Source of the DNA: Sedimentisphaera salicampi
GTDB lineage: Bacteria > Planctomycetota > Phycisphaerae > Sedimentisphaerales > Sedimentisphaeraceae
Reading direction: 5' to 3'
Length of the DNA stretch: 64,000 nucleotides
NCBI RefSeq assembly: GCF_002117005.1
Contig: NZ_CP021023.1
Location: 1,860,001-1,924,000 of the forward strand
Part shown: one piece after another, positions 5,571 through 50,245 of the stretch
Layout of the letters: each line of letters begins with the position of its first letter
Numbering within the stretch: position 1 is the stretch's first letter
The notes under the pieces: model-generated
Told to the model about the DNA's origin: nothing
Database searches by the model: none
Seen by the model: only the letters and a program-made list of their open reading frames with translations
Position numbers and translations under genes: made by a program

Positions 5571-7054
5571 AATATAAGATGTTTCTTTGAAAATAGCGGG
5601 GTATGAGTTACACTAATTTCAACAAACTAACCAAAAATTAGGAGTAACTCATGACACCCGCTAAGCATCAATATACAGTTCTCAAGCAGATATGCCAATA
5701 TATTCCTGCTTATCTTGTTTCAAAATTATCCCGGTTTTACGGTATTGACAAGCAATCACGAACATTTTCGTGCTGGTCTCACATTGTATCTATGCTTCAT
5801 GTCCAGATTGCTCACAGCCTCTCGCTGAACGACGTTGCCGACACATTGCGTAATCATTCCGGAGCTTTGATTCCTATTCGCCGTGCAACCCCACCAAGCA
5901 GGAATGGGCTTTCTCATGCAAACAGGGTTCGAGATCCTCGTATGGCAGAGACTCTCTTCTGGGAGGTGCTGTCCCATATCCAAGCCCAGCATCCTAATTT
6001 TGGCAGAGGTCATAAATACTCCGGCCTTCCAAGGCGTTTTAAGAGAGCAATATATGCGGTTGATTCAACAACGATTCAGCTTGTAGCCAACTGTATTGAC
6101 TGGGCTAAACATCGCAGACGCAAAGCCGCTGCAAAGTGCCACATGCAGCTTAATCTCCAGACATTCCTGCCTCAATTTGCTATTGTAAAAGAAGCCTCAA
6201 CCCATGATTCGACAGAGGCTTATCAGCTCTGTCAGAACCTTAAAAGCGGCGAAATAGCGGTTTTTGACAAGGCTTACGTGGATTTTAAGCATCTGGCTGA
6301 TCTTGACAGGCGAGAATTATTCTGGGTTACCAGAGCCAAAGACAATATGAAATATCGTTTTGTTAAACAGAATACAGAACCAAAAGGTGATATCCAATAC
6401 GATGCATTAATTGAACTTGAAATGCCGAAAAGCTATGAGGCCTACCCGAAGCAGCTCCGTTTGGTTAAGGCTTATGTGGAAGTTAACGGCGAGAAAAAGC
6501 TTATGAAATTTATCACTAACAATACTCAGTGGGCGCCGAGCAGTATCTGCGGCCTATATAAATGCCGATGGGGCATAGAGGTGTTTTTCAAGCAAATAAA
6601 GCAGACTTTGCAGCTAAGCGATTTCCTAGGGCATAGCCAAGAAGCGATTCTATGGCAAGTATGGACGGCAATGCTTGCTTATATTTTAATACGGTATATA
6701 GGTTTCCTCGGCAAATGGAAAGGAACATTCAGTCGATTGTTTACTTTGCTGAGGGGTGTATTATTCAGCCGGCTGGATGTTTTTAGCGTTATGGCTGCCT
6801 GTGGGACAGCACGTGGTTCACCGCGTATGGTTGCAAGCCCTCAGCAGGCTTATTTGCCAGGTTTTAATATGTAGCAAGATTTTACGCAAAGAAAGAGGTG
6901 AAAAAAGAGTGGGCAGTATTGAGCAAAAAACTGACAATTGAACAATAGCCAAAAAAATGCAAACTGGGGTGATTGAAATCCTTCAGGAAAAGGGCGTTTT
7001 AATACAATAAACAAGCCCTCAACGATAAATCTATGGACCTATGGGATGGCTGTG
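5547..7054 (+). mobile_element. Complete IS4-type insertion sequence, about 1.5 kb
   Basis: The element is bounded by perfect 16-base terminal inverted repeats: CACAGCCATCCCATAG at 5547-5562 and its exact reverse complement at 7039-7054. Both are flanked by the 9-base direct duplication AAAAAATTC. It contains one transposase gene (5651-6874). The intact ends, intact transposase and identical target duplication suggest a recent, possibly still active insertion. About 165 non-coding bases lie between the transposase stop and the right end. The size and YREK motif fit the IS4 family; the exact subgroup cannot be named from sequence reading alone. Confidence 0.93.
5651..6874 (+). CDS. IS4-family DDE transposase
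   Basis: A 407-residue transposase, apparently full length. The catalytic core shows AIYAVDSTTIQL (first Asp), an AVFDKAYVDF segment (second Asp) and the IS4 signature Y-x2-R-x3-E-x6-K in YKCRWGIEVFFKQIKQTL (catalytic Glu). The N-terminal third carries a DUF4372-like region (FSCWSHIVSMLHVQIA), common in this family. It catalyses cut-and-paste movement of the surrounding element. The ATG follows a good AGGAG site. No frameshift or internal stop is present. Confidence 0.92.
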   Translation: MTPAKHQYTVLKQICQYIPAYLVSKLSRFYGIDKQSRTFSCWSHIVSMLHVQIAHSLSLNDVADTLRNHSGALIPIRRATPPSRNGLSHANRVRDPRMAETLFWEVLSHIQAQHPNFGRGHKYSGLPRRFKRAIYAVDSTTIQLVANCIDWAKHRRRKAAAKCHMQLNLQTFLPQFAIVKEASTHDSTEAYQLCQNLKSGEIAVFDKAYVDFKHLADLDRRELFWVTRAKDNMKYRFVKQNTEPKGDIQYDALIELEMPKSYEAYPKQLRLVKAYVEVNGEKKLMKFITNNTQWAPSSICGLYKCRWGIEVFFKQIKQTLQLSDFLGHSQEAILWQVWTAMLAYILIRYIGFLGKWKGTFSRLFTLLRGVLFSRLDVFSVMAACGTARGSPRMVASPQQAYLPGFNM

Positions 7055-19173: not shown

Positions 19174-19245
19174 ACTGCTTTTGCCTGTTTAATTAGGGTT
19201 TTAAGTAAGATAAAAACAAAAATCAACGATTTTGCTAATCTCACG

Positions 19246-19273
19246 AGTATCTCTAACAGGCTGGAAAAGTCAA
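19246..19273 (-). promoter_or_regulatory. Candidate sigma70-type promoter for the efp-secA operon
   Basis: On the minus strand TTGACT (19273-19268) is separated by 16 bases from GATACT (19251-19246), about 75 bases before the elongation factor P start. Five and four of six bases match the consensus. Position and orientation fit, but this is by eye only. Confidence 0.45.
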
Positions 19274-19339
19274 GTTTTTTGCCTGTTAAACAGAAAACCA
19301 ACGCCATTTTATTTGCTTTCACGCAGAGCGAGAAGGGAT

Positions 19340-20160
19340 AAAGCTAAAGGGCGTAAGAATACAGGGAATAGGCAGAGAGAATCTTTCAGCCGCTAATCGG
19401 CGCTGAGATTTATTAGCCGCTGAGCAGCACTAAGATACGCTAAGGTTTTTTAATGCGAGATATATTAGCCGCTAATCTCCGCTGATTTTTCTCTAATGAT
19501 TTTGTAAGATACCTTTTTTTGACGGGATTAACAGGATAAATATCCTAAGATTTAAAGATAAAATTCACACATCCTCCGTGATCCTCCGTGTCCTCTGTGG
19601 TAAAAAAAACATTAACCACGGAGAGAAAAGATATATATTAACCACAGAGGCACACCGAGGGGCACAGAGGTTTTTTAAATAAATATATTAACATCCTCTC
19701 CGCTGTCTCCGCTCCCTCCGATGTTTAACTCTCTTTTACATCAGAGAAAACATTTTCATAAATGAGGGAAAGCTCTCTGTCGGAAGAACGTTTCACCGCA
19801 ATACCAAACTCTTCTCCAATGTTTAAATTGTATTTTTGACACAGAGTTATCGGAGGAAGCGGAGGGGAGATATTTTTAGTTGCTAATCAGCACTAATTTT
19901 TCACTAATGATTTAAGATAAGTTTTTTTGATGGAGAAAGCCGATTTAAAATTAATATGAAATCTTTATCTCATCCTGTAAATCCTTGCCCCGTAGCCAAA
20001 GCGGTTCGGGGTTGTTAATCCTGTCTAATTTATCACATCCTCTCCGCTGATTTTTCTCTAATGATTTTGCTGCTTGCAATCCGCCGCAGGCGGACTTGCA
20101 GCTCTGCCACTCTGCCACTTGCCACGAATCTCTCCGCTGTCTCCGCTTACTCCGATGTTT
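19340..20160. repeat. Composite intergenic repeat block, left copy
   Basis: A gene-free block made of shuffled short modules. These include gccgctaatc-type phrases, CTCCGTG and CACAGAGG stretches, and a segment of about 75 bases (19748-19830) found almost unchanged in reverse orientation at about 49795-49872. A further segment (about 19885-20045, with ttaatcctgtctaatttatc) is also reversed at about 49955-50085. No coding frame is credible. Such patchworks are typical of expanding non-coding repeats in environmental genomes. Confidence 0.75.
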
Positions 20161-20187
20161 AACTTTCTCTTAAATTAGAGATTAGAT

Positions 20188-20352
20188 CCGCCTGCGGCGG
20201 ACTCCACGCACGGCTCTGATTGTCGTTAGTATTAAGCAGCGATTTCACGATACGAGATATTTAAACTGAGCCACGCATGAATCCGCCTTCGGCGGAAATA
20301 AGTGGACAGCAGATGCCCATCACAGACATGCCGCAGCATTTACGGACTGAGC
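20188..20352 (+). repeat. Palindrome-bounded dispersed repeat (family R1), copy A
   Basis: The unit begins with the palindrome CCGCCTGCGGCGG, continues with ACTCCACGCACGGCTCTGAT, a T-rich middle, ACGAGATATTTAAACTGAGC, another palindrome CCGCCTTCGGCGG, and ends near the phrase CAGCATTTACGGACTGAGCC. The same order is seen at 37296-37466; shorter copies lie at 50129-50245 and, inverted, at 49500-49605. Confidence 0.85.
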
Positions 20353-20382
20353 CGGCCGAATCTTCCCCCGAAGGCGAAGAAC

Positions 20383-20410
20383 AAAGAGCCCCTCCGGAAG
20401 GCTCTTTTGT
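20383..20410. terminator. Hairpin with T-run, terminator-like
   Basis: AAAGAGCC (20383-20390) pairs with GGCTCTTT (20400-20407) around a 9-base loop, with one further T. It occurs in a gene-free region next to repeat copy A, so the gene it would serve is not evident. Confidence 0.5.
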
Positions 20411-20463
20411 TCGAGACGCCGCCTTTTCTTTTTTATTTCTTTTATTTTTTAAATTATGGTAGA

Positions 20464-20583
20464 CAATTTGTCTATGATCCTCGCCAATCTGTCTATGCTG
20501 CACGCCAATTTGTCTTATGTTTACGCCATTTTGTCTATAGCCATTTTGTCTATGTGCCAAATTGTCTATCTGCAATTTTTCGG
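20464..20583. repeat. Short tandem array of degenerate CAATTTGTCTATG units
   Basis: Seven imperfect copies of a unit beginning CAATTTGTCTATG start at 20464, 20485, 20506, 20527, 20542, 20558 and 20573. The spacing is therefore 21, 21, 21, 15, 16 and 15 bases. On the minus strand the 21-base units would read as seven-residue repeats starting RQIG or RQNG, inside an open frame (20261-20641) without a good start site. The 16-base step breaks the frame, so coding is doubtful. Spacers are too short and repeats too degenerate for CRISPR. Confidence 0.75.
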
Positions 20584-20641
20584 TATTCTGGCGGTTTAGG
20601 GCAGATCGGAAACGAGGCCAAAAAAAACAGAATTTTCTCAA

Positions 20642-21190
20642 TCTGCCATAGCCTATAAAATAATAAGGCCTCTCACCCTTGGCGGGATGTTAAGGGTTTG
20701 CGCGAAAAATCCGGGTTTAATAAATGACGGTAATCACATAAAACCCTGCGAGGGAAGGAGTAAGAAAAATTGAAAAATTTTTGTTTTTCGCAGCTCTTGA
20801 GCTATGAGATTTTAAGCCGCTAATCAGCACTGAGATTTCACTAATGATTTTGCAACGAGCAATCCGCCTCAGGCGGACTTACAGCTCTGCCACTGGCTAT
20901 CCGCCGCAGGCGGACTTGCAGCTCTGCTACCCGCCACAAATTTTTTCTCCTTGAAGCGACCGGTTAAAATAGTATAATAATATCATTATGGCAAGATTTC
21001 CTGAAAATCAAACCCAAATTGCCGCACCTGCTGAGCCGCCGTGGCTGAGCCCAATATTTAACAGCGCCATCTTCATCCATCCGCCGAAGGCGGGTCAAAA
21101 CGCCGCCCGCAAACCCCTAAACCGCAAAACAACCGCATATTGCGGAAAACCCAAAGTGTATAAATTAAACTCATATTTTGTATTCGATAA
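20642..21190. other. Gene-free gap with palindromic repeat fragments
   Basis: The gap contains isolated CCGCC-x3-GGCGG palindromes (near 20868-20880, 20900-20912 and 21080-21092) and gccgctaatcagcactgag-type phrases. It ends in the leader of the DUF262 operon. An 86-codon frame at 20988-21248 runs through a palindrome and is not considered real. Confidence 0.5.
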
Positions 21191-21195
21191 TATAC

Positions 21196-21201
21196 AGGAG
21201 G
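21196..21201 (+). promoter_or_regulatory. Ribosome-binding site deciding a TTG start
   Basis: AGGAGG ends six bases before TTG at 21208. It lies inside the longest open frame (which could start at TTG 21178), so the downstream TTG is the better start for the first DUF262 gene. No ATG is available nearby in this frame. Confidence 0.8.
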
Positions 21202-21207
21202 TCCATT

Positions 21208-23010
21208 TTGTGCCAAAAATTAAAATTAGAACCAAAGACAATTCATAGTCTTTTAGGTGAAGAGTTCTTTATCCCTGCATATCAACGTGGTTATAGATGG
21301 AAAAAAAGGCAGATCGAAAATCTCCTTGATGATATTTGGGAATTTCAAGCTAATGCTGATTGTATTCCTAAGGAAGGGTTTTACTGTTTGCAGCCCTTAG
21401 TTGTTTCTAAAAATAAGGGCAAATGGGAAGTTGTGGATGGGCAGCAAAGATTAACAACGATTTATATTATTCTGTCTTTTTTGGAAAAAGAGCATATTAA
21501 GGTTTCTCTTGAAGAAGCGTTTCAAAAACCGCTTTTTACTCTTGAATACGAAACACGACCAGATAGCGCAGAGTATCTTAGGGATATTAATGCTGAGTTG
21601 TCTGATAGTAATGTAGATTACTATTATATTAATAAAGCTTACCAAACTATTGATTCGTGGTTTCAGAATAAGGACTTCAATGAAAAAAACGTTTTCCTCA
21701 ACATTTTGCTTTCTAAAGAACATAAAGCTGTAAAGGTAATTTGGTATGATATTAGCGATGAGTGTAAAGATAATGATTATGCAATTGATGTCTTTACCCG
21801 TATCAACATCGGGAAGATACCTCTAACTAATGCTGAACTGATCAAAGCCTTGTTTTTAGGTAAAATCCAGAAGGAAGATGGTAAGGATCAAGATCATGTT
21901 GATTTAAAGAGGCTGCAAATTGCTACAGAATGGGATAACATAGAAAATTCACTTCAAAAAGATGATTTCTGGCATTTCATTTACAACGGCACAAAAAACT
22001 ATGATACAAGGATTGAGTATATATTTGACCTAATGAAAAGCAAAAAATTGAATAAGGATGATCAATTTTATACCTTTGATAAATTCAATAAACAGTTACA
22101 TAAAGAAAATATAGATAAGGTATGGCTTTCTGTAAAAAAATATTTTCAGAGATTTGAAGATTGGTTTCATAATAGAGATTTCTATCATTACATTGGCTTT
22201 TTGATTGCTACAGGAAGCAGTGTTTCAGAGTTAGTGAATCAATCTGCTCAGAAATCAAAATCGGAATTCAAACAGTTTCTGGTAGGGGAGATTAAAGAAA
22301 AGAGCACTAATGATATAGATTCTTTGGATTATGGTGAAAATAATGATGAAATAAGAAAGGTTTTATTGTTGTTCAATATTCAGTCGCTATTAAATAATCC
22401 AACGTCATCAAGCCGGTTTCCATTTGACTATTACAAAAACGGCATGTGGGATTTAGAGCATATTCATTCCATCAAATCTGATAAACCTGTTGTTGAAAAG
22501 CAGCAACGTGAATGGCTAAAATTAGTGCTGGAATATTTTATCGGCTATAACCAAATAAATGAGCAAGCTTCAATTAATAATTTACCAGAGAAAGAGAAAA
22601 AAATTGCAAGTCAAATTGAGCAGGCCTTGAATTATAAAGAGAGCGATTTTACGGCTATTTATAATAATGTAATGGGATTCTTCAATAAATCCGAAGAGTC
22701 TGGAGAACCTGAAGATATTGATAAGATCTCTAATTTGACTTTACTTGATTCTGGCACCAATAGGTCTTACAAAAACGCACCTTTTCCCGTGAAACGAAAG
22801 ATTATATTATCCAAAGATACAAGCGGTACTTTTGTCCCTCTCTGCACCAAAAATGTGTTCATAAAAGCGTATAGCTCGAGGTTTGATAATTTGATGTACT
22901 GGCAGCAACAGGACCGCTCGAAGTATCTAGAAGCAATCAAAAAAACATTGGCCGATGCTGGTTTTATCGAAAAAAGTGCAATTGAAGGAGATACCAATGA
23001 CAATCAATAA
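21208..23010 (+). CDS. DUF262 protein with HNH/DUF1524-like C-terminus (first of a pair)
   Basis: A 600-residue cytoplasmic protein. The N-terminal DUF262 (ParB/sulfiredoxin-like) domain shows IPAYQRGYRW (22-31), the signature VVDGQQRLTT (75-84) and FTRINIGKIPLTNAELIKA (about 196-214). The C-terminal region has WDLEHIHS (His at 418) and later SNLTLLDSGTN (508-518) with KR (529-530), the spacing expected of a DUF1524 HNH-type nuclease. Such DUF262-DUF1524 fusions include GmrSD-type modification-dependent restriction enzymes and SspE: DUF262 uses NTP binding or hydrolysis to control cleavage. The gene is much more AT-rich than its neighbours and overlaps the next gene by 14 bases. A restriction role is inferred. 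Confidence 0.85.
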   Translation: MCQKLKLEPKTIHSLLGEEFFIPAYQRGYRWKKRQIENLLDDIWEFQANADCIPKEGFYCLQPLVVSKNKGKWEVVDGQQRLTTIYIILSFLEKEHIKVSLEEAFQKPLFTLEYETRPDSAEYLRDINAELSDSNVDYYYINKAYQTIDSWFQNKDFNEKNVFLNILLSKEHKAVKVIWYDISDECKDNDYAIDVFTRINIGKIPLTNAELIKALFLGKIQKEDGKDQDHVDLKRLQIATEWDNIENSLQKDDFWHFIYNGTKNYDTRIEYIFDLMKSKKLNKDDQFYTFDKFNKQLHKENIDKVWLSVKKYFQRFEDWFHNRDFYHYIGFLIATGSSVSELVNQSAQKSKSEFKQFLVGEIKEKSTNDIDSLDYGENNDEIRKVLLLFNIQSLLNNPTSSSRFPFDYYKNGMWDLEHIHSIKSDKPVVEKQQREWLKLVLEYFIGYNQINEQASINNLPEKEKKIASQIEQALNYKESDFTAIYNNVMGFFNKSEESGEPEDIDKISNLTLLDSGTNRSYKNAPFPVKRKIILSKDTSGTFVPLCTKNVFIKAYSSRFDNLMYWQQQDRSKYLEAIKKTLADAGFIEKSAIEGDTNDNQ

Positions 23011-25552
23011 TAGCTTAAAAGAACATAGCAAACAATTAAGTTTTTATCAACTTATCTCAGAAAATAAGCTTTCAATTGAAATACCAATAATTCAGCGAGA
23101 TTATGCACAGGGTAGAGCGTCTAACAAAAGCATAAGGGAATCTTTCATAAATGTTTTGCATAAGCATGTAACAGGTAATAGTAATATTGACTTGGATTTT
23201 GTGTACGGAGAGATTACAGGCAATAATGAAGATTGTTTTGTTCCTTTAGATGGTCAACAAAGGCTTACTACACTATTCTTGCTGCATTGGTACTTAGCAA
23301 CCAAAGAAGATAAGTTTAAAGAATTTCAAGAATTTATGTTTGCTGATGATTCAGATAGCAAGTCTAGATTCTGTTATGCCACTCGTGCAAGTTCAAGCGA
23401 GTTTTGTACAGCGTTAGCTAAATGTGATATTGATTTTGGAAAAGTTAACGCAGAGAAAGGCGAGGACAGACTGTCAAAAACTATAAAAGATATGCATTGG
23501 TATTTTGAGTCTTGGGATAATGACCCAACAGTTAAAGCCATGCTTACGATGCTTGATACAATTGACGGTAAATTTAAAGATACCGAAAATTTGTTTGATA
23601 GGTTATTGGCAAAAGATAAACCAGTAATAACGTTTAACTTTCTCAACCTAAAAACACTAGGGCTCACCGATGATTTATATATAAAAATGAATTCTAGAGG
23701 AGAACCGCTAAGTGATTTTGAAAACTTCAAGGCCAAATTTGAGCAGTGTATTAAAAGATTTTCAAACGAACTCCCAGAGTATGAACTTACCTATCATCGA
23801 GGATCCCGAAAAGTAAGAGCTCATGAATATTTTTCCCATAAGATAGATACCAGATGGTCAGATTTGTTTTGGAAATACCGCAACAATAAAACGAATACAT
23901 TCGACAAAGAGATAATGAATTTCATCCAGACAGTTATAACAAATAATTATGCATTATCTTCAATTAAGAAAAAAAATGAGGATACCGAAAAGGTTATCAG
24001 AAAACTGCGTAGCGATGAGTTAGCAGAGAAGAATCAGGCCTATTTTTATTATGAAGAGATTGGATGTATTACTAAAGATTTGATTGAAAATCTAATTGCA
24101 ATATTTGATTTGCTTGAAGGCGGAAACGATAAGATTAAAACTTATCTTGAAGATAGCAGTTATTATGATGAGGATAATGTTTTTGAAAAAGCAATCGCTA
24201 GATCAACTACTTATCGAGATAATTTACGGTTCTATGCTTTTTATGTTTATCTCATTCAATTTGGTAAAGATGATACTGGATTAACTGATTGGATAAGGGT
24301 TGTCTATAATTTAACAGAGAACACGATATATGATAGTTCAGGAGATTATATAAGAGATATAAAAATAATTAACCTTCTAGTAAGTAAAGGTCAGGAAATA
24401 TTAAAATATTTAGCCAATATAAACAATTCTATTGAAGGCTTTTCTATTTTTCAAAAATATGAAGAGAGAGTTAAGGCATCTCTGATTCTGAAAAGTCAAG
24501 AGTGGCGTGAAGCTATAATCACTATAGAAAAACATGACTATTTCAAAGGGCAAATCGGTTTTATTCTAGAGTTTGCCGGAATAACTGAGTATTACGAAGA
24601 AAATGGGCATTGTAATTGGGGGCAAGAGCTCAACTCTCGATTTTTAGACAAATTTAAGAGTTATTCGTCAAAAGCAAATTCAGTATTCAGTTGCATTAAA
24701 GATGGGTCTAAATCTATTAAATATCTTTGGGAAAGAGCTGTACTTACAAAGGGAGATTATATGATAAAAACCAGTGCATGGAGACGCAATCTTCTGAGCA
24801 CTAACTCTAGAGAATATAATATCCCTAGAGATTTTAATTGGAAAAGGCTTTTAAGACTACCTAATAATCGAAACTATAGCTCTAAAGATGATTTGGAAGA
24901 AAGAGGCCTCGTTAAGGCTGTGTTTGATGATGTAATGTTTGATGCTGATAATATAGAAAAATCTTTGTGTGATATATGTAAGACAGCTTTGAAAAGTAAT
25001 ACCCTTAAGCCATGGAAAGTATTATTGGTTAGGGACCCTTGTTGTATAGATTATTGTGGCCATGGCTTTTTGAGAATTGAGTCGGATTATAATATACAAT
25101 TGCTGACTAAGGCTCGTCTTAGTAGCTGGCATGCAGAATTATATTCTTATGCCTTTTTTAAAAAATACTTAGAAAACCGTGATTTTACGCCGTTTGAATA
25201 CTGCAAGTATGAATATGTAAGAACTGAATTGGGGCGGGCCCACGCAAAAATTTATGGTTTTATTTTTGAGGATATTAAATTTGAGATAAAAATAACTTTT
25301 TGTAGTGATAGGCAAAGTTATAAGATTTCTTTTGTTTCTTTTGAACCTAAAAATGAAAACTCAATACAAAATGAAGACAGGCCTATAGAGTGTACTCATA
25401 TCCCAAATGCAATTAGAGATATATTGAATGAATCAAAAATGACAGAGATAAAAAATAAAAAATTTACTAAATATGCAAATACTGAAGAAGAGGTAATTAA
25501 TTTAATAGAAGAGCTTTGCGAAAAATTAAAACACATTATTAATGGCAATTAG
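22997..25552 (+). CDS. Large DUF262 protein of the IQRDYAQG type (second of a pair)
   Basis: An 851-residue cytoplasmic protein. Its N-terminus carries a variant DUF262 domain: IPIIQRDYAQGR (29-40), FVPLDGQQRLTT (81-92) and YIKMNSRGEPLSDFENFKA further on. The remaining 500 residues are helical, then mixed. No EHIH-type HNH motif is seen, so this subunit may be regulatory, or its nuclease may belong to an unrecognised fold. The ATG at 22997 has GAAGGAG six bases before it and overlaps the end of the first DUF262 gene by 14 bases, which indicates coupled translation and a shared complex or function. AT-rich, consistent with horizontal transfer. Defence is the most likely role but is not shown by sequence alone. 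Confidence 0.82.
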   Translation: MTINNSLKEHSKQLSFYQLISENKLSIEIPIIQRDYAQGRASNKSIRESFINVLHKHVTGNSNIDLDFVYGEITGNNEDCFVPLDGQQRLTTLFLLHWYLATKEDKFKEFQEFMFADDSDSKSRFCYATRASSSEFCTALAKCDIDFGKVNAEKGEDRLSKTIKDMHWYFESWDNDPTVKAMLTMLDTIDGKFKDTENLFDRLLAKDKPVITFNFLNLKTLGLTDDLYIKMNSRGEPLSDFENFKAKFEQCIKRFSNELPEYELTYHRGSRKVRAHEYFSHKIDTRWSDLFWKYRNNKTNTFDKEIMNFIQTVITNNYALSSIKKKNEDTEKVIRKLRSDELAEKNQAYFYYEEIGCITKDLIENLIAIFDLLEGGNDKIKTYLEDSSYYDEDNVFEKAIARSTTYRDNLRFYAFYVYLIQFGKDDTGLTDWIRVVYNLTENTIYDSSGDYIRDIKIINLLVSKGQEILKYLANINNSIEGFSIFQKYEERVKASLILKSQEWREAIITIEKHDYFKGQIGFILEFAGITEYYEENGHCNWGQELNSRFLDKFKSYSSKANSVFSCIKDGSKSIKYLWERAVLTKGDYMIKTSAWRRNLLSTNSREYNIPRDFNWKRLLRLPNNRNYSSKDDLEERGLVKAVFDDVMFDADNIEKSLCDICKTALKSNTLKPWKVLLVRDPCCIDYCGHGFLRIESDYNIQLLTKARLSSWHAELYSYAFFKKYLENRDFTPFEYCKYEYVRTELGRAHAKIYGFIFEDIKFEIKITFCSDRQSYKISFVSFEPKNENSIQNEDRPIECTHIPNAIRDILNESKMTEIKNKKFTKYANTEEEVINLIEELCEKLKHIINGN

Positions 25553-25670
25553 TTTTGCGTCTACAAAAACCTTTTTATCAATATGCCCTAATTCAGCAGG
25601 GTTCAGGCTGCGATGCGGGGAAATGCCGGCGGGGCCTGGCTGATGAAGCAAATATTATGAAGGAGTTATT

Positions 25671-26174
25671 ATGGAATCATCTGTGGTTTTTGGAGCCCCT
25701 TGGAGCGGCGCTTTGAAGGGGATGACAGGGCTTTTTTCTCTGATTCTTGCCGGCATTGCGATTGTTGGCATATTTACAGGCCCCGAAGGTGATGCAACGT
25801 GGACATTGAGCATGACAGCAATGCCGCTTGCGATACTCATCATTTCGGCCTTTTTTATGATTCGCGGCTATGTCCTCACAGAAGACGCTCTTCTCGTGCA
25901 GCGCCTCGGCTGGAATTCAAGCTTAGATTTAACGGGTCTTATTTCAGCAGAGGCTAAGCCTAAGGCAATGGCCAAATCAATACGTAAATTTGGTAATGGA
26001 GGGCTGTTTTGTTTCGCCGGCGCATTTTATAATAAAGCTCTCGGCTCCTATCGTGCTTTTGCCACAGACAACAGCCGCACAGTTGTTTTGAAGTTTGCCG
26101 AACGCACGGTTGTGGTTTCGCCGGATAAGCCGGAGGAGTTTGTAACACAAATCAAAAATTTCAAAAATCTTTAA
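25671..26174 (+). CDS. Small membrane protein with PH-like C-terminal domain
   Basis: A 167-residue protein with two membrane helices (about 13-36 and 45-66). A C-terminal beta-rich region follows, beginning YVLTEDALLVQRLGW and ending TVVVSPDKPEEFVTQIKNF. This pattern (two helices, then a bacterial PH domain whose last helix starts with a P-x-F-V motif) is common to bPH proteins of unknown function. GAAGGAG stands in good position before the ATG. GC content is back to the window average, so it is probably not part of the DUF262 unit 118 bases upstream. Confidence 0.65.
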   Translation: MESSVVFGAPWSGALKGMTGLFSLILAGIAIVGIFTGPEGDATWTLSMTAMPLAILIISAFFMIRGYVLTEDALLVQRLGWNSSLDLTGLISAEAKPKAMAKSIRKFGNGGLFCFAGAFYNKALGSYRAFATDNSRTVVLKFAERTVVVSPDKPEEFVTQIKNFKNL

Positions 26175-26360
26175 AAAACTATATATTAACCTATTCCCAA
26201 ATAGCATGTTGAGGTTTTTGGCGTGAGATGGCAGGGATAAAGAGTGCTAGGCAATAGATAACGTTTGGCATGTCTCATACCATGCTTATGGAAAACTATT
26301 TAGCTGCTTACAGGTATTATAAAGAAACCATATAACCTTTATTAGTTGAAAGAAATGACG

Positions 26361-26657
26361 ATGAAAACAGCAATGTCTTGGATACACTTTATCTGCTGCG
26401 TAGTCTTTTTAATATGGACTCTCTATGCCTTGCTTGAATATGGTTTGAGAGATAGTGAAGGAATAATTGTAATTTTATACGCCTTACTTACAAGCGTAAC
26501 GGGAATCTACTTATTCGTAATCGAGCAAAAGCAGGATCATAAACAACTTAAAAAGATCAGAACCGACAACAAGATTATTCAGGCAAAACTTGAAAGATTA
26601 AAGCTTCAACAAGAGCTTTCTTCCAAACAAAGAGAAACCAACGAAAAATCTAATTAA
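26361..26657 (+). CDS. Small hypothetical protein, two membrane helices and a coiled-coil tail
   Basis: A 98-residue protein with helices at about 5-25 (SWIHFICCVVFLIWTLYALL) and 35-54. A charged Lys/Glu/Gln-rich helix of about 40 residues follows, likely a cytoplasmic coiled coil. The start is ambiguous: TTG 26346, ATG 26355 or ATG 26361; GAAAGAA lies before the last. It is moderately AT-rich and without recognised homologues. It may be an accessory gene acquired together with its neighbours. Confidence 0.5.
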   Translation: MKTAMSWIHFICCVVFLIWTLYALLEYGLRDSEGIIVILYALLTSVTGIYLFVIEQKQDHKQLKKIRTDNKIIQAKLERLKLQQELSSKQRETNEKSN

Positions 26658-26739
26658 AAAACTATGCACAGCTTCTGACTTATAGAATATAACCCCTAAT
26701 TCAAAATAGAATGCAAAAAAGGGTTCAAGGAGATATTCG

Positions 26740-27576
26740 ATGAAAACTGCCCCGAAGCTCGCAATCATTCTCGCCGCTGTTTTGTTCTCGCTTCCAGCGA
26801 TTGCGGCGGAGAACTACAAAACCGAAACCGACATCCTCTACCGCAGTGCGGGGCAGGCCGAGGCAGACAGCTATATCAAGCAGCGCTGCCGGCTTGATGT
26901 GTACTACCCGGATGAGGAGGGCGTTTATCCGAGCGTGGTATGGTTTCACGGCGGCGGGCTCAGCGCCGGAGGCAAATACATCCCCCACGAGCTCAAGGAG
27001 AAGGGCGTTATCGTTGCTGCTGTGAATTACAGGCTGCATCCGAAGGTGAAATCGCCGGTGTATATCGAAGATGCCGCTGCGTCGATCGCCTGGGTGTTTG
27101 AGAATATCGAGAAATACAACGGCTCGCGCGAGCAGATATTCGTTTCCGGCCATTCGGCGGGGGGCTATCTCACCAGTATGGCAGGGCTCGATAAGAGCTA
27201 TCTGGCGGAATTCGGCATCGATGCGAACGATATCGCCGGCCTGATCCCCTTCAGCGGGCATACAATCACCCATTTCACCGTCCGCAAGGAACGCGGCATT
27301 CCCGGCACGCAGCCGATAGCCGATGAGATGTCTCCGCTCTATCACGTGCGGAAGGATGCACCGCCATACGTGATTATCACCGGAGACAGAGAGCTGGAAA
27401 TGCTCGGCCGCTACGAGGAAAACGCATATATGTGGCGGATGATGAAGGTTTGCGGGCATAAACAAACCAGCATCTACGAACTCGAAGGCTACGACCACGG
27501 CGAAATGCCCCACGCCGCCTTCAAGATCCTCCTCGACTGCATCGAGAAAATATTGAAGGAAAAGCTGGATTCATAA
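26740..27576 (+). CDS. Secreted alpha/beta-hydrolase esterase
   Basis: A 278-residue exported hydrolase of the esterase/lipase (HSL/BD-FAE-like) group. A signal peptide (1-22, ending AIAA) is followed by the oxyanion motif HGGGLSAGG, nucleophile elbow GHSAGG, acid residue in ITGDRE and catalytic His in YDHGEMP. It probably removes acyl groups from sugars or aromatic esters outside the cytoplasm. AAGGAGAT precedes the ATG. The gene is GC-rich with biased codons, in contrast to the AT-rich genes just upstream. It converges with the esterase on the other strand. Confidence 0.85.
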   Translation: MKTAPKLAIILAAVLFSLPAIAAENYKTETDILYRSAGQAEADSYIKQRCRLDVYYPDEEGVYPSVVWFHGGGLSAGGKYIPHELKEKGVIVAAVNYRLHPKVKSPVYIEDAAASIAWVFENIEKYNGSREQIFVSGHSAGGYLTSMAGLDKSYLAEFGIDANDIAGLIPFSGHTITHFTVRKERGIPGTQPIADEMSPLYHVRKDAPPYVIITGDRELEMLGRYEENAYMWRMMKVCGHKQTSIYELEGYDHGEMPHAAFKILLDCIEKILKEKLDS

Positions 27577-37295: not shown

Positions 37296-37466
37296 CGCCT
37301 TCGGCGGACTCCACGCACGGCTCTGATTGTCTTTAGTATTACGCAGCGATTTCACGAAACGAGATATTTAAACCGAGCCACGCATGTAGGCCCGCCGCAG
37401 GCGGGACGGAATAAGTGGACAGCAGACGTTCATCACAGATTGGCCGCAGCATTTACGGACTAAGCC
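37296..37466 (+). repeat. Palindrome-bounded dispersed repeat (family R1), copy B
   Basis: It matches copy A (20188-20352) in order and almost base for base over ACTCCACGCACGGCTCTGAT, ACGAGATATTTAAACCGAGC, an internal CCGCC-x3-GGCGG palindrome, AATAAGTGGACAGCAGA and GCAGCATTTACGGACTAAGC. Confidence 0.85.
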
Positions 37467-49252: not shown

Positions 49253-49499
49253 AGTAAAACCTGCAAAATACAATAAAATTCCAGTTCCTTTGAAAGAGGG
49301 CATTATATTCAAAAAGAGCCTTTTGGAAAGTGGGGAAAGGGCCGGCAGAAACACGCGGACAGATATCTTTTTTGATGCCAGAAGAAGGTTTGCTTGAATC
49401 GCAAAAGAGATAAATCCGCTGATTGCACAGACCTCGCAGATATATTACACAGATTGCACGGAGTTTTTGTGGCCTGTGGCGAGCAGCAGAGCTGCAAGT

Positions 49500-49605
49500 C
49501 CGCCTGCGGCGGGTGGCTCGCGGCTCGGTTTAAACGTTAGTTTCGTGAAGTCGCTGCGAAATGCTAACGACAATCAGAGCCGTGCGTGGAGTCCGCCGAA
49601 GGCGG
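49500..49605 (-). repeat. Palindrome-bounded dispersed repeat (family R1), copy D
   Basis: In reverse it reads CCGCCTTCGGCGG, ACTCCACGCACGGCTCTGAT, TGTCGTTAGCATTTCGCAGC, GTTTAAACCGAGCC, then a closing CCGCCGCAGGCGG, in the same order as copies A and B. Confidence 0.8.
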
Positions 49606-49679
49606 ACGAAACAAGCGGATAGATTCGCTGCTCGTTACGAGTGGCGAGTGGCAGAGCTGCAAGTCCGCCTGTGGCGGAT

Positions 49680-50105
49680 TGTGAGGGGCAAAATCATTAG
49701 TGAAAAATTAGTGTAGATTAGCGGCTGAAAACATCTCTCTCATATTTTTTTCCTCTCCCCTCCGTTTCCTCCGATACCTCCGTGTAAAAATCAATTTAAA
49801 CATTGTAGAAGAGTTTGGTATTGCGGTGAAACGTCCTTCCGGCATAGAGCTTTCCCTCATTTATGCGTCTGTCCCCTCAAATGTGAATTTGATTTATACC
49901 GAGCCTGTCCGCCGGAGGCGGAGAGGAATCGGAGCAATCGGAGGAGGATGTGATAAATTAGACAGGATTAACAAGATTTACAGGATGAGATAAAGATTTC
50001 ATATTAATTTTAAATTGGCTTTCTTATCAAAAAAACTTATCTTAAATCATTAGTGAAAAATTAGTGCTGATTAGTGGTTAAAAAAATATCTCCCCTCTGT
50101 GCCCC
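49680..50105 (-). repeat. Composite intergenic repeat block, right copy (inverted)
   Basis: It shares two long segments in reverse orientation with the left block. About 49795-49872 corresponds to 19748-19830 (phrase GAAGAGTTTGGTATTGCGG), and about 49955-50085 to 19885-20045 (phrase GATAAATTAGACAGGATTAA). Between them lie different short modules. Confidence 0.75.
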
Positions 50106-50128
50106 TCCGCCTGCGGCGGACAGGCTCT

Positions 50129-50245
50129 CCGCCTTCGGCGGACTCCACGTGCGGCTCTGATTGTCTTTAGTATTACGCAGCGATTCCACAAAACGAGATA
50201 TTTAAACTGAGCTACGCTTAAAGGCTTGCCGCAGGCGGGAAGGGT
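50129..50245 (+). repeat. Palindrome-bounded dispersed repeat (family R1), copy C
   Basis: CCGCCTTCGGCGG is followed by ACTCCACGTGCGGCTCTGAT, TTTAGTATTACGCAGCGATT and ACGAGATATTTAAACTGAGC. It ends at a degenerate palindrome near 50228 and lacks the distal GCAGCATTTACGG part of copies A and B. Confidence 0.8.

Follow-up and report, generated by a model that had tools for sequence, protein, structure and literature searches.

A GrwAB-type pair of DUF262 genes in Sedimentisphaera salicampi as a probable two-subunit, modification-dependent restriction system

Introduction

What is the function of two overlapping DUF262 genes in the genome of Sedimentisphaera salicampi? The genes, called A and B here, lie in a window of 64,000 nucleotides (the whole stretch of DNA that was analysed). 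A first-pass annotation made from the sequence alone proposed that they form a two-part restriction system that works on its own against modified phage DNA. A match to the published system GrwAB and the strict pairing of the two genes support this proposal, though such a system is not new. By analogy with GrwAB, the pair is very probably a two-subunit, modification-dependent (type IV) restriction system. The gene structure, motifs, pairing, co-inheritance and predicted folds of A and B are described below, together with three alternative explanations.

The two genes and their products

The annotation described two dissimilar DUF262 genes that overlap by 14 bases, each with its own strong ribosome-binding site, in a block far more AT-rich than its flanks. 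All of this is borne out (Table 1). Gene A starts with TTG, 5 nt after the motif AGGAGG, and the starts of its homologues line up with this codon. The ATG of gene B lies inside the end of A and is preceded by GAAGGAG. The overlap is consistent with translational coupling. The two proteins share 26% identity over 86 residues (E 2e-4), and the GC content of their genes (0.333 for A, 0.320 for B) is more than 6 s.d. below that of the 32 other genes of the window (0.499 +/- 0.026).

Table 1. Coordinates of the features of the pair within the window.
Feature	Position	Strand	Evidence
Shine-Dalgarno-like AGGAGG of gene A	21197..21202	+	Sequence reading
Gene A, GrwA-like, 600 aa	21208..23010	+	Pfam; conservation across 50 homologues; structure model; SspE, DndI and BrxU fold matches
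A/B overlap, 14 bp	22997..23010	+	ORF coordinates; median spacing of relatives -4 bp (n=99)
Gene B, GrwB-like, 851 aa	22997..25552	+	Pfam; conservation across 66 homologues; structure model; SspE match

Protein A was originally read as a DUF262-DUF1524 HNH-like nuclease. Profile searches and structure prediction of the single proteins, both suggested in the annotation, agree with this reading. Pfam GmrSD_N (DUF262) matches residues 17-217 of A (2.7e-34), and GmrSD_C (DUF1524) scores 22.9 bits, just below the Pfam cut-off of 23. The DUF262 region carries the motifs Q26-R27, D77GQQR81 and F196xxxN200, and is followed by a helical linker and a C-terminal His-Me/DUF1524-like nuclease with the predicted nuclease residues H418, N509 and N518. 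Five residues (R81, N200, H418, N509 and N518) are invariant across 50 A sequences. In the structure model (pLDDT 87.6), H418 ends strand 414-418 and N509 just precedes strand 510-514, with helices after; as modelled, this is the arrangement of a beta-beta-alpha site. The best solved fold matches of A are SspE (Z 16.5) and DndI (Z 14.9), with BrxU at Z 7.6, and those to SspE and BrxU span most of its length. Models of HEC-05, HEC-06 and Orf5 from PADLOC match A partially, mostly in the N-terminal DUF262 region.

Protein B consists of a DUF262/GmrSD_N region, a helical middle and, from about residue 690 to 851, a C-terminal alpha/beta domain that varies in sequence. GmrSD_N is its sole significant Pfam family (residues 18-248, 3.8e-21). 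The motifs Q33-R34, D85GQQR89 and N232 are present, and Q33, R34, D85, R89 and N232 are invariant across 66 B homologues. Like A, B resembles SspE: in a model with pLDDT 89.7, its first 237 residues match that protein with Z 14.0 and rmsd 4.5 over 210 aligned residues. The annotation found no recognised nuclease in the long C-terminal region, and neither does Pfam. At the thresholds applied, searches of PADLOC and NCBIfam gave no match to B.

Pairing and co-inheritance

Evidence that two proteins work together can be provided by the arrangement of their genes in other organisms. A tblastn search of plasmids with B gave 17 records, 12 of which were examined; an A gene lies upstream of B in all 12, with an IS3 transposase between the two in one of them. 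A single-sequence search of genome contigs with B gave no match. A profile made from the plasmid homologues was then used for species genomes and for IMG/VR, where it found 80 and 11 loci, respectively. B was not found in phage records.

Among 103 loci, all found through B (A was sampled only via B), A immediately precedes B on the same strand in 99. In these 99 the median spacing is -4 bp; the genes overlap in 61 and lie within 20 bp of each other in 97. The other four loci are an IS insertion (L012), a fusion (L090), and two in which B begins at a contig end and the locus is cut off there (L019 and L087). The annotation had called for such a survey of the gene order, with homologues usually found apart as the outcome that would speak against a two-gene system; they are found together.

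The two genes have also changed together. Over 45 loci, the distances between A sequences and those between B sequences are correlated with a Mantel r of 0.882, while the maximum in 2000 permutations is 0.218. A and B are strictly paired and co-inherited.

The fusion is found in a Victivallis MAG, where A and B form one uninterrupted ORF (L090:1878-5666) of 1263 residues from stop to stop that keeps both DGQQR motifs and the His-Me residues.

A different kind of change is seen in a Paenarthrobacter plasmid, in which an IS3 transposase (L012:6602-7621) lies between A and B. Because B is also split into two ORFs, this copy of the pair is probably broken. In the Entomospira plasmid p28, a third, divergent DUF262 gene lies beside the pair on the opposite strand (L013:10285-12138).

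These arrangements bear on the first alternative, in which A alone is a single-chain restriction enzyme like GmrSD or BrxU and B restrains it as a regulator or immunity factor without being required. A does have a complete DUF262-linker-His-Me architecture, most of which matches SspE and BrxU, and the toxicity of the two genes of GmrSD-ECOR17 when co-expressed at a high level implies that regulation matters (PMC12373910). However, B keeps the invariant QR, DGQQR and N motifs expected of an active DUF262 protein, the two proteins are fused in one locus, and GrwAB (PMC12137116), TgvAB (PMC11411939) and GmrSD-ECOR17 (PMC12373910) each require both of theirs. This makes a dispensable B improbable.

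The B tree mixes phyla, and the B of the window groups with Bacteroidota and viral contigs. Together with the low GC content, the tree fits horizontal transfer of the pair, leaving the donor unproven. The nearest relatives are only about 40-47% identical, and thus target specificity is not transferable from them. When Gammaproteobacteria were scanned for a copy like that of V. cholerae, 3 of 369 genomes, counting the seed, had strong matches.

Genomic setting

The genes that recur beside the pair in other hosts are those of WYL regulators (24 loci), 3'-5' exonucleases (16), HsdR (15), AAA ATPases (15) and HsdM/HsdS (13). At some loci (L017, L023, L026, L035, L040 and L076) the pair is flanked by hsdM/hsdS-like genes on one side and by the hsdR gene of a type I restriction-modification operon on the other. 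The pair is thus beside or inside a type I system in many hosts, while the Sedimentisphaera salicampi genome is without an HsdR or N6_Mtase match. Here secA and efp, identified by their sequences, lie to the left of the pair, and genes for an esterase and a bacterial PH-domain protein lie to its right. As the annotation stated, no modification gene adjoins the pair; of the window proteins that were scanned, none was recognised as a methylase or as another defence protein. In the closed 3.19-Mb genome, A and B are the sole GmrSD_N matches, and HsdR, N6_Mtase and DndB have zero matches. Since no HsdR, N6_Mtase-family or DndB gene was found, the pair would act on its own in this genome.

The same searches weigh on a second alternative. 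SspE and DndI, which rely on phosphorothioation, are the best solved fold matches for both proteins, and the pair could be an effector of their type that senses phosphorothioates and depends on modification genes (dnd or ssp) at another place in the genome. This is the least probable of the alternatives, a slight chance at best: no DndB was found in the genome, none of the scanned window proteins was recognised as the product of a modification gene, and SspE and DndI are single-chain proteins without a partner like B.

Is the pair part of a mobile island? The annotation took it for an accessory island preceded by repeats, and one half of that description stands. The 2 kb of repeats at 19174-21200 have more than 160 BLAST matches across the same genome, some of them elsewhere in the window. 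Because they are dispersed genome-wide, the repeats were rejected as an island border. The accessory status of the pair is supported by comparison with a congener, the one searched, in which the pair was not found. There, the left flank has a counterpart with about 90% identity that reaches as far as window position 19319; about 75 kb separate it from the counterpart of the right flank (25649-27536). The absence of the pair and the separation of its flanks in the congener support an accessory pair at a rearrangement breakpoint. The single DUF262 gene of the congener is of another type and has no adjoining B.

Other features of the window were seen in passing. Dispersed intergenic repeats, found at 19174-21200 and also at 37296-37466 and 49466-50217, hold ACCACGGAG-like and CCGCCGCAGGCGG-like units. 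A short tandem array of CAATTTGTCTATG-like units, with periods of 21 and 15 bp, precedes the operon at 20464-20569. A transposase with DDE_Tnp_1 and DUF4372 lies at 5651-6874. A copy of it with 93% identity adjoins the counterpart of the right flank of the pair in the congener; the transposase may be linked to the rearrangement.

The variable C-terminus of B

Conservation along B is uneven. In the DUF262 region, which is conserved most, the best blocks of 50 residues are 42-53% identical to the window protein; past residue 600, identity drops to 10-17%. The C-terminal regions that are long enough to compare (n=59) fall into similarity groups of 21, 16, 8 and 2, with 12 singletons. This variability and the several sequence groups suggest, without proving, that the C-terminus sets the target; they fit a role in recognition, and fast drift would look similar.

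A more specific model is tentative and more likely wrong than right: the C-terminal domain of B would be an exchangeable recognition module that sets which DNA modification is attacked, and the conserved DUF262 parts of both proteins would be a common NTP-driven clamp. Natural single-chain fusions of A and B (L090) would offer a ready format for testing this reading. In fold searches, the domain matches KmAtg10 (Z 7.2), Mediator (Z 6.6), the C-terminal domain of T4 MotA (Z 6.2) and the DNA-binding domain of McrB (Z 4.3). MotA and McrB both bind modified DNA. The likeness to them was dropped, and no fold is claimed, because its scores do not rise above background and are equalled by those of unrelated folds.

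Recognition of modified DNA by GmrSD-like enzymes is described as unknown (PMC12409362), and the variable C-terminus of B gives a concrete place to seek it.

Proposed function

GrwAB, which was described and tested in 2025, is a type IV restriction system that resembles GmrSD and occurs in WASA strains of V. cholerae; it needs both of its genes and restricts phages with hypermodified bases (PMC12137116). Its essential residues include the arginines of both DGQQR motifs (R81 of GrwA and R86 of GrwB) and H431, N521 and N530 of GrwA; phages that escape it have mutations in dpdA, the gene of the DNA-modification enzyme DpdA (PMC12137116).

The mechanism proposed for the pair rests on these requirements of GrwAB. 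A and B would be made together and probably form a complex. Their DUF262 domains, which have SspE/ParB-like folds, would bind and hydrolyse NTP and help to sense hypermodified bases in incoming phage DNA, as GrwAB, SspE and BrxU lead one to expect. The His-Me site of A (H418, N509 and N518) would then cut the modified DNA. B, which has no recognised nuclease, would be an obligate partner in recognition or regulation, and its variable C-terminal domain may set the modification that is attacked.

The third alternative is an abortive-infection or toxin-antitoxin module, in which the nuclease of A is freed from B on infection and damages host DNA. The two-gene overlapping layout is compatible with such a module, and cultures protected by GrwAB later filament and lyse (PMC12137116). 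On the other hand, B is the larger protein and has a conserved nucleotide-binding motif, unlike a small antitoxin, and the nuclease gene precedes it. A module of this kind is very unlikely, and restriction of modified DNA is the preferred function.

Comparison with known systems

Several known proteins resemble A alone. GmrSD, BrxU, SspE and DndI combine DUF262 with a His-Me/HNH nuclease, but are single-chain and have no partner like B. HEC-05, HEC-06 and Orf5 of PADLOC resemble A in part and provide no match for B; the HEC-05 and HEC-06 proteins act independently (PMC11411939).

TgvAB (V. cholerae VPI-2) and GmrSD-ECOR17 are tested two-gene systems. In each, both proteins contain DUF262 and one of them also has an HNH/DUF1524 nuclease, and TgvAB also sits beside or inside type I systems, like many relatives of the pair. 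The gene order, however, is reversed. In TgvAB the non-nuclease DUF262 gene comes first and the nuclease histidine is near 571 (PMC11411939), and in GmrSD-ECOR17 this histidine is at 583 (PMC12373910). In the pair the nuclease gene comes first and the histidine is H418. DUF262 is reported to be all that TgvA has in common with GrwB.

GrwAB is carried by about 1% of genomes, and its operon has GrwA (DUF262-DUF1524) first and GrwB (DUF262 and unknown domains) second (PMC12137116). The pair shares with it two adjacent, co-directional genes with that of the nuclease subunit first and no modification gene within the pair. A likewise combines DUF262-DUF1524 with R81 and a His-Me H/N/N set, and B combines DUF262 with a long, nuclease-free C-terminus. 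Residues R81, H431, N521 and N530 of GrwA correspond to R81, H418, N509 and N518 of A; the spacing between the asparagines is 9 in both, and that from histidine to asparagine is 90 in GrwA and 91 here. R86 of GrwB corresponds to the DGQQR arginine R89 of B, which has QR, DGQQR and FxxxN-type motifs. The differences are an unrelated host, the position of the histidine (H431 versus H418) and a location outside the VSP-II island.

On this basis the pair is filed as GrwAB-type, with the match drawn from the published gene order, domains and catalytic residues of the V. cholerae system. The annotation had named membership of the second gene in an already described system as evidence against its proposal; GrwAB largely accounts for that gene, which lowers the novelty of the locus and leaves the functional assignment unaffected. 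GrwAB-type pairs occur far beyond Vibrio; some lie within type I restriction-modification operons, and one is fused into a single ORF. The Sedimentisphaera salicampi pair, with an ordinary mechanism, is one more, well-supported member of this widespread and recently described family.
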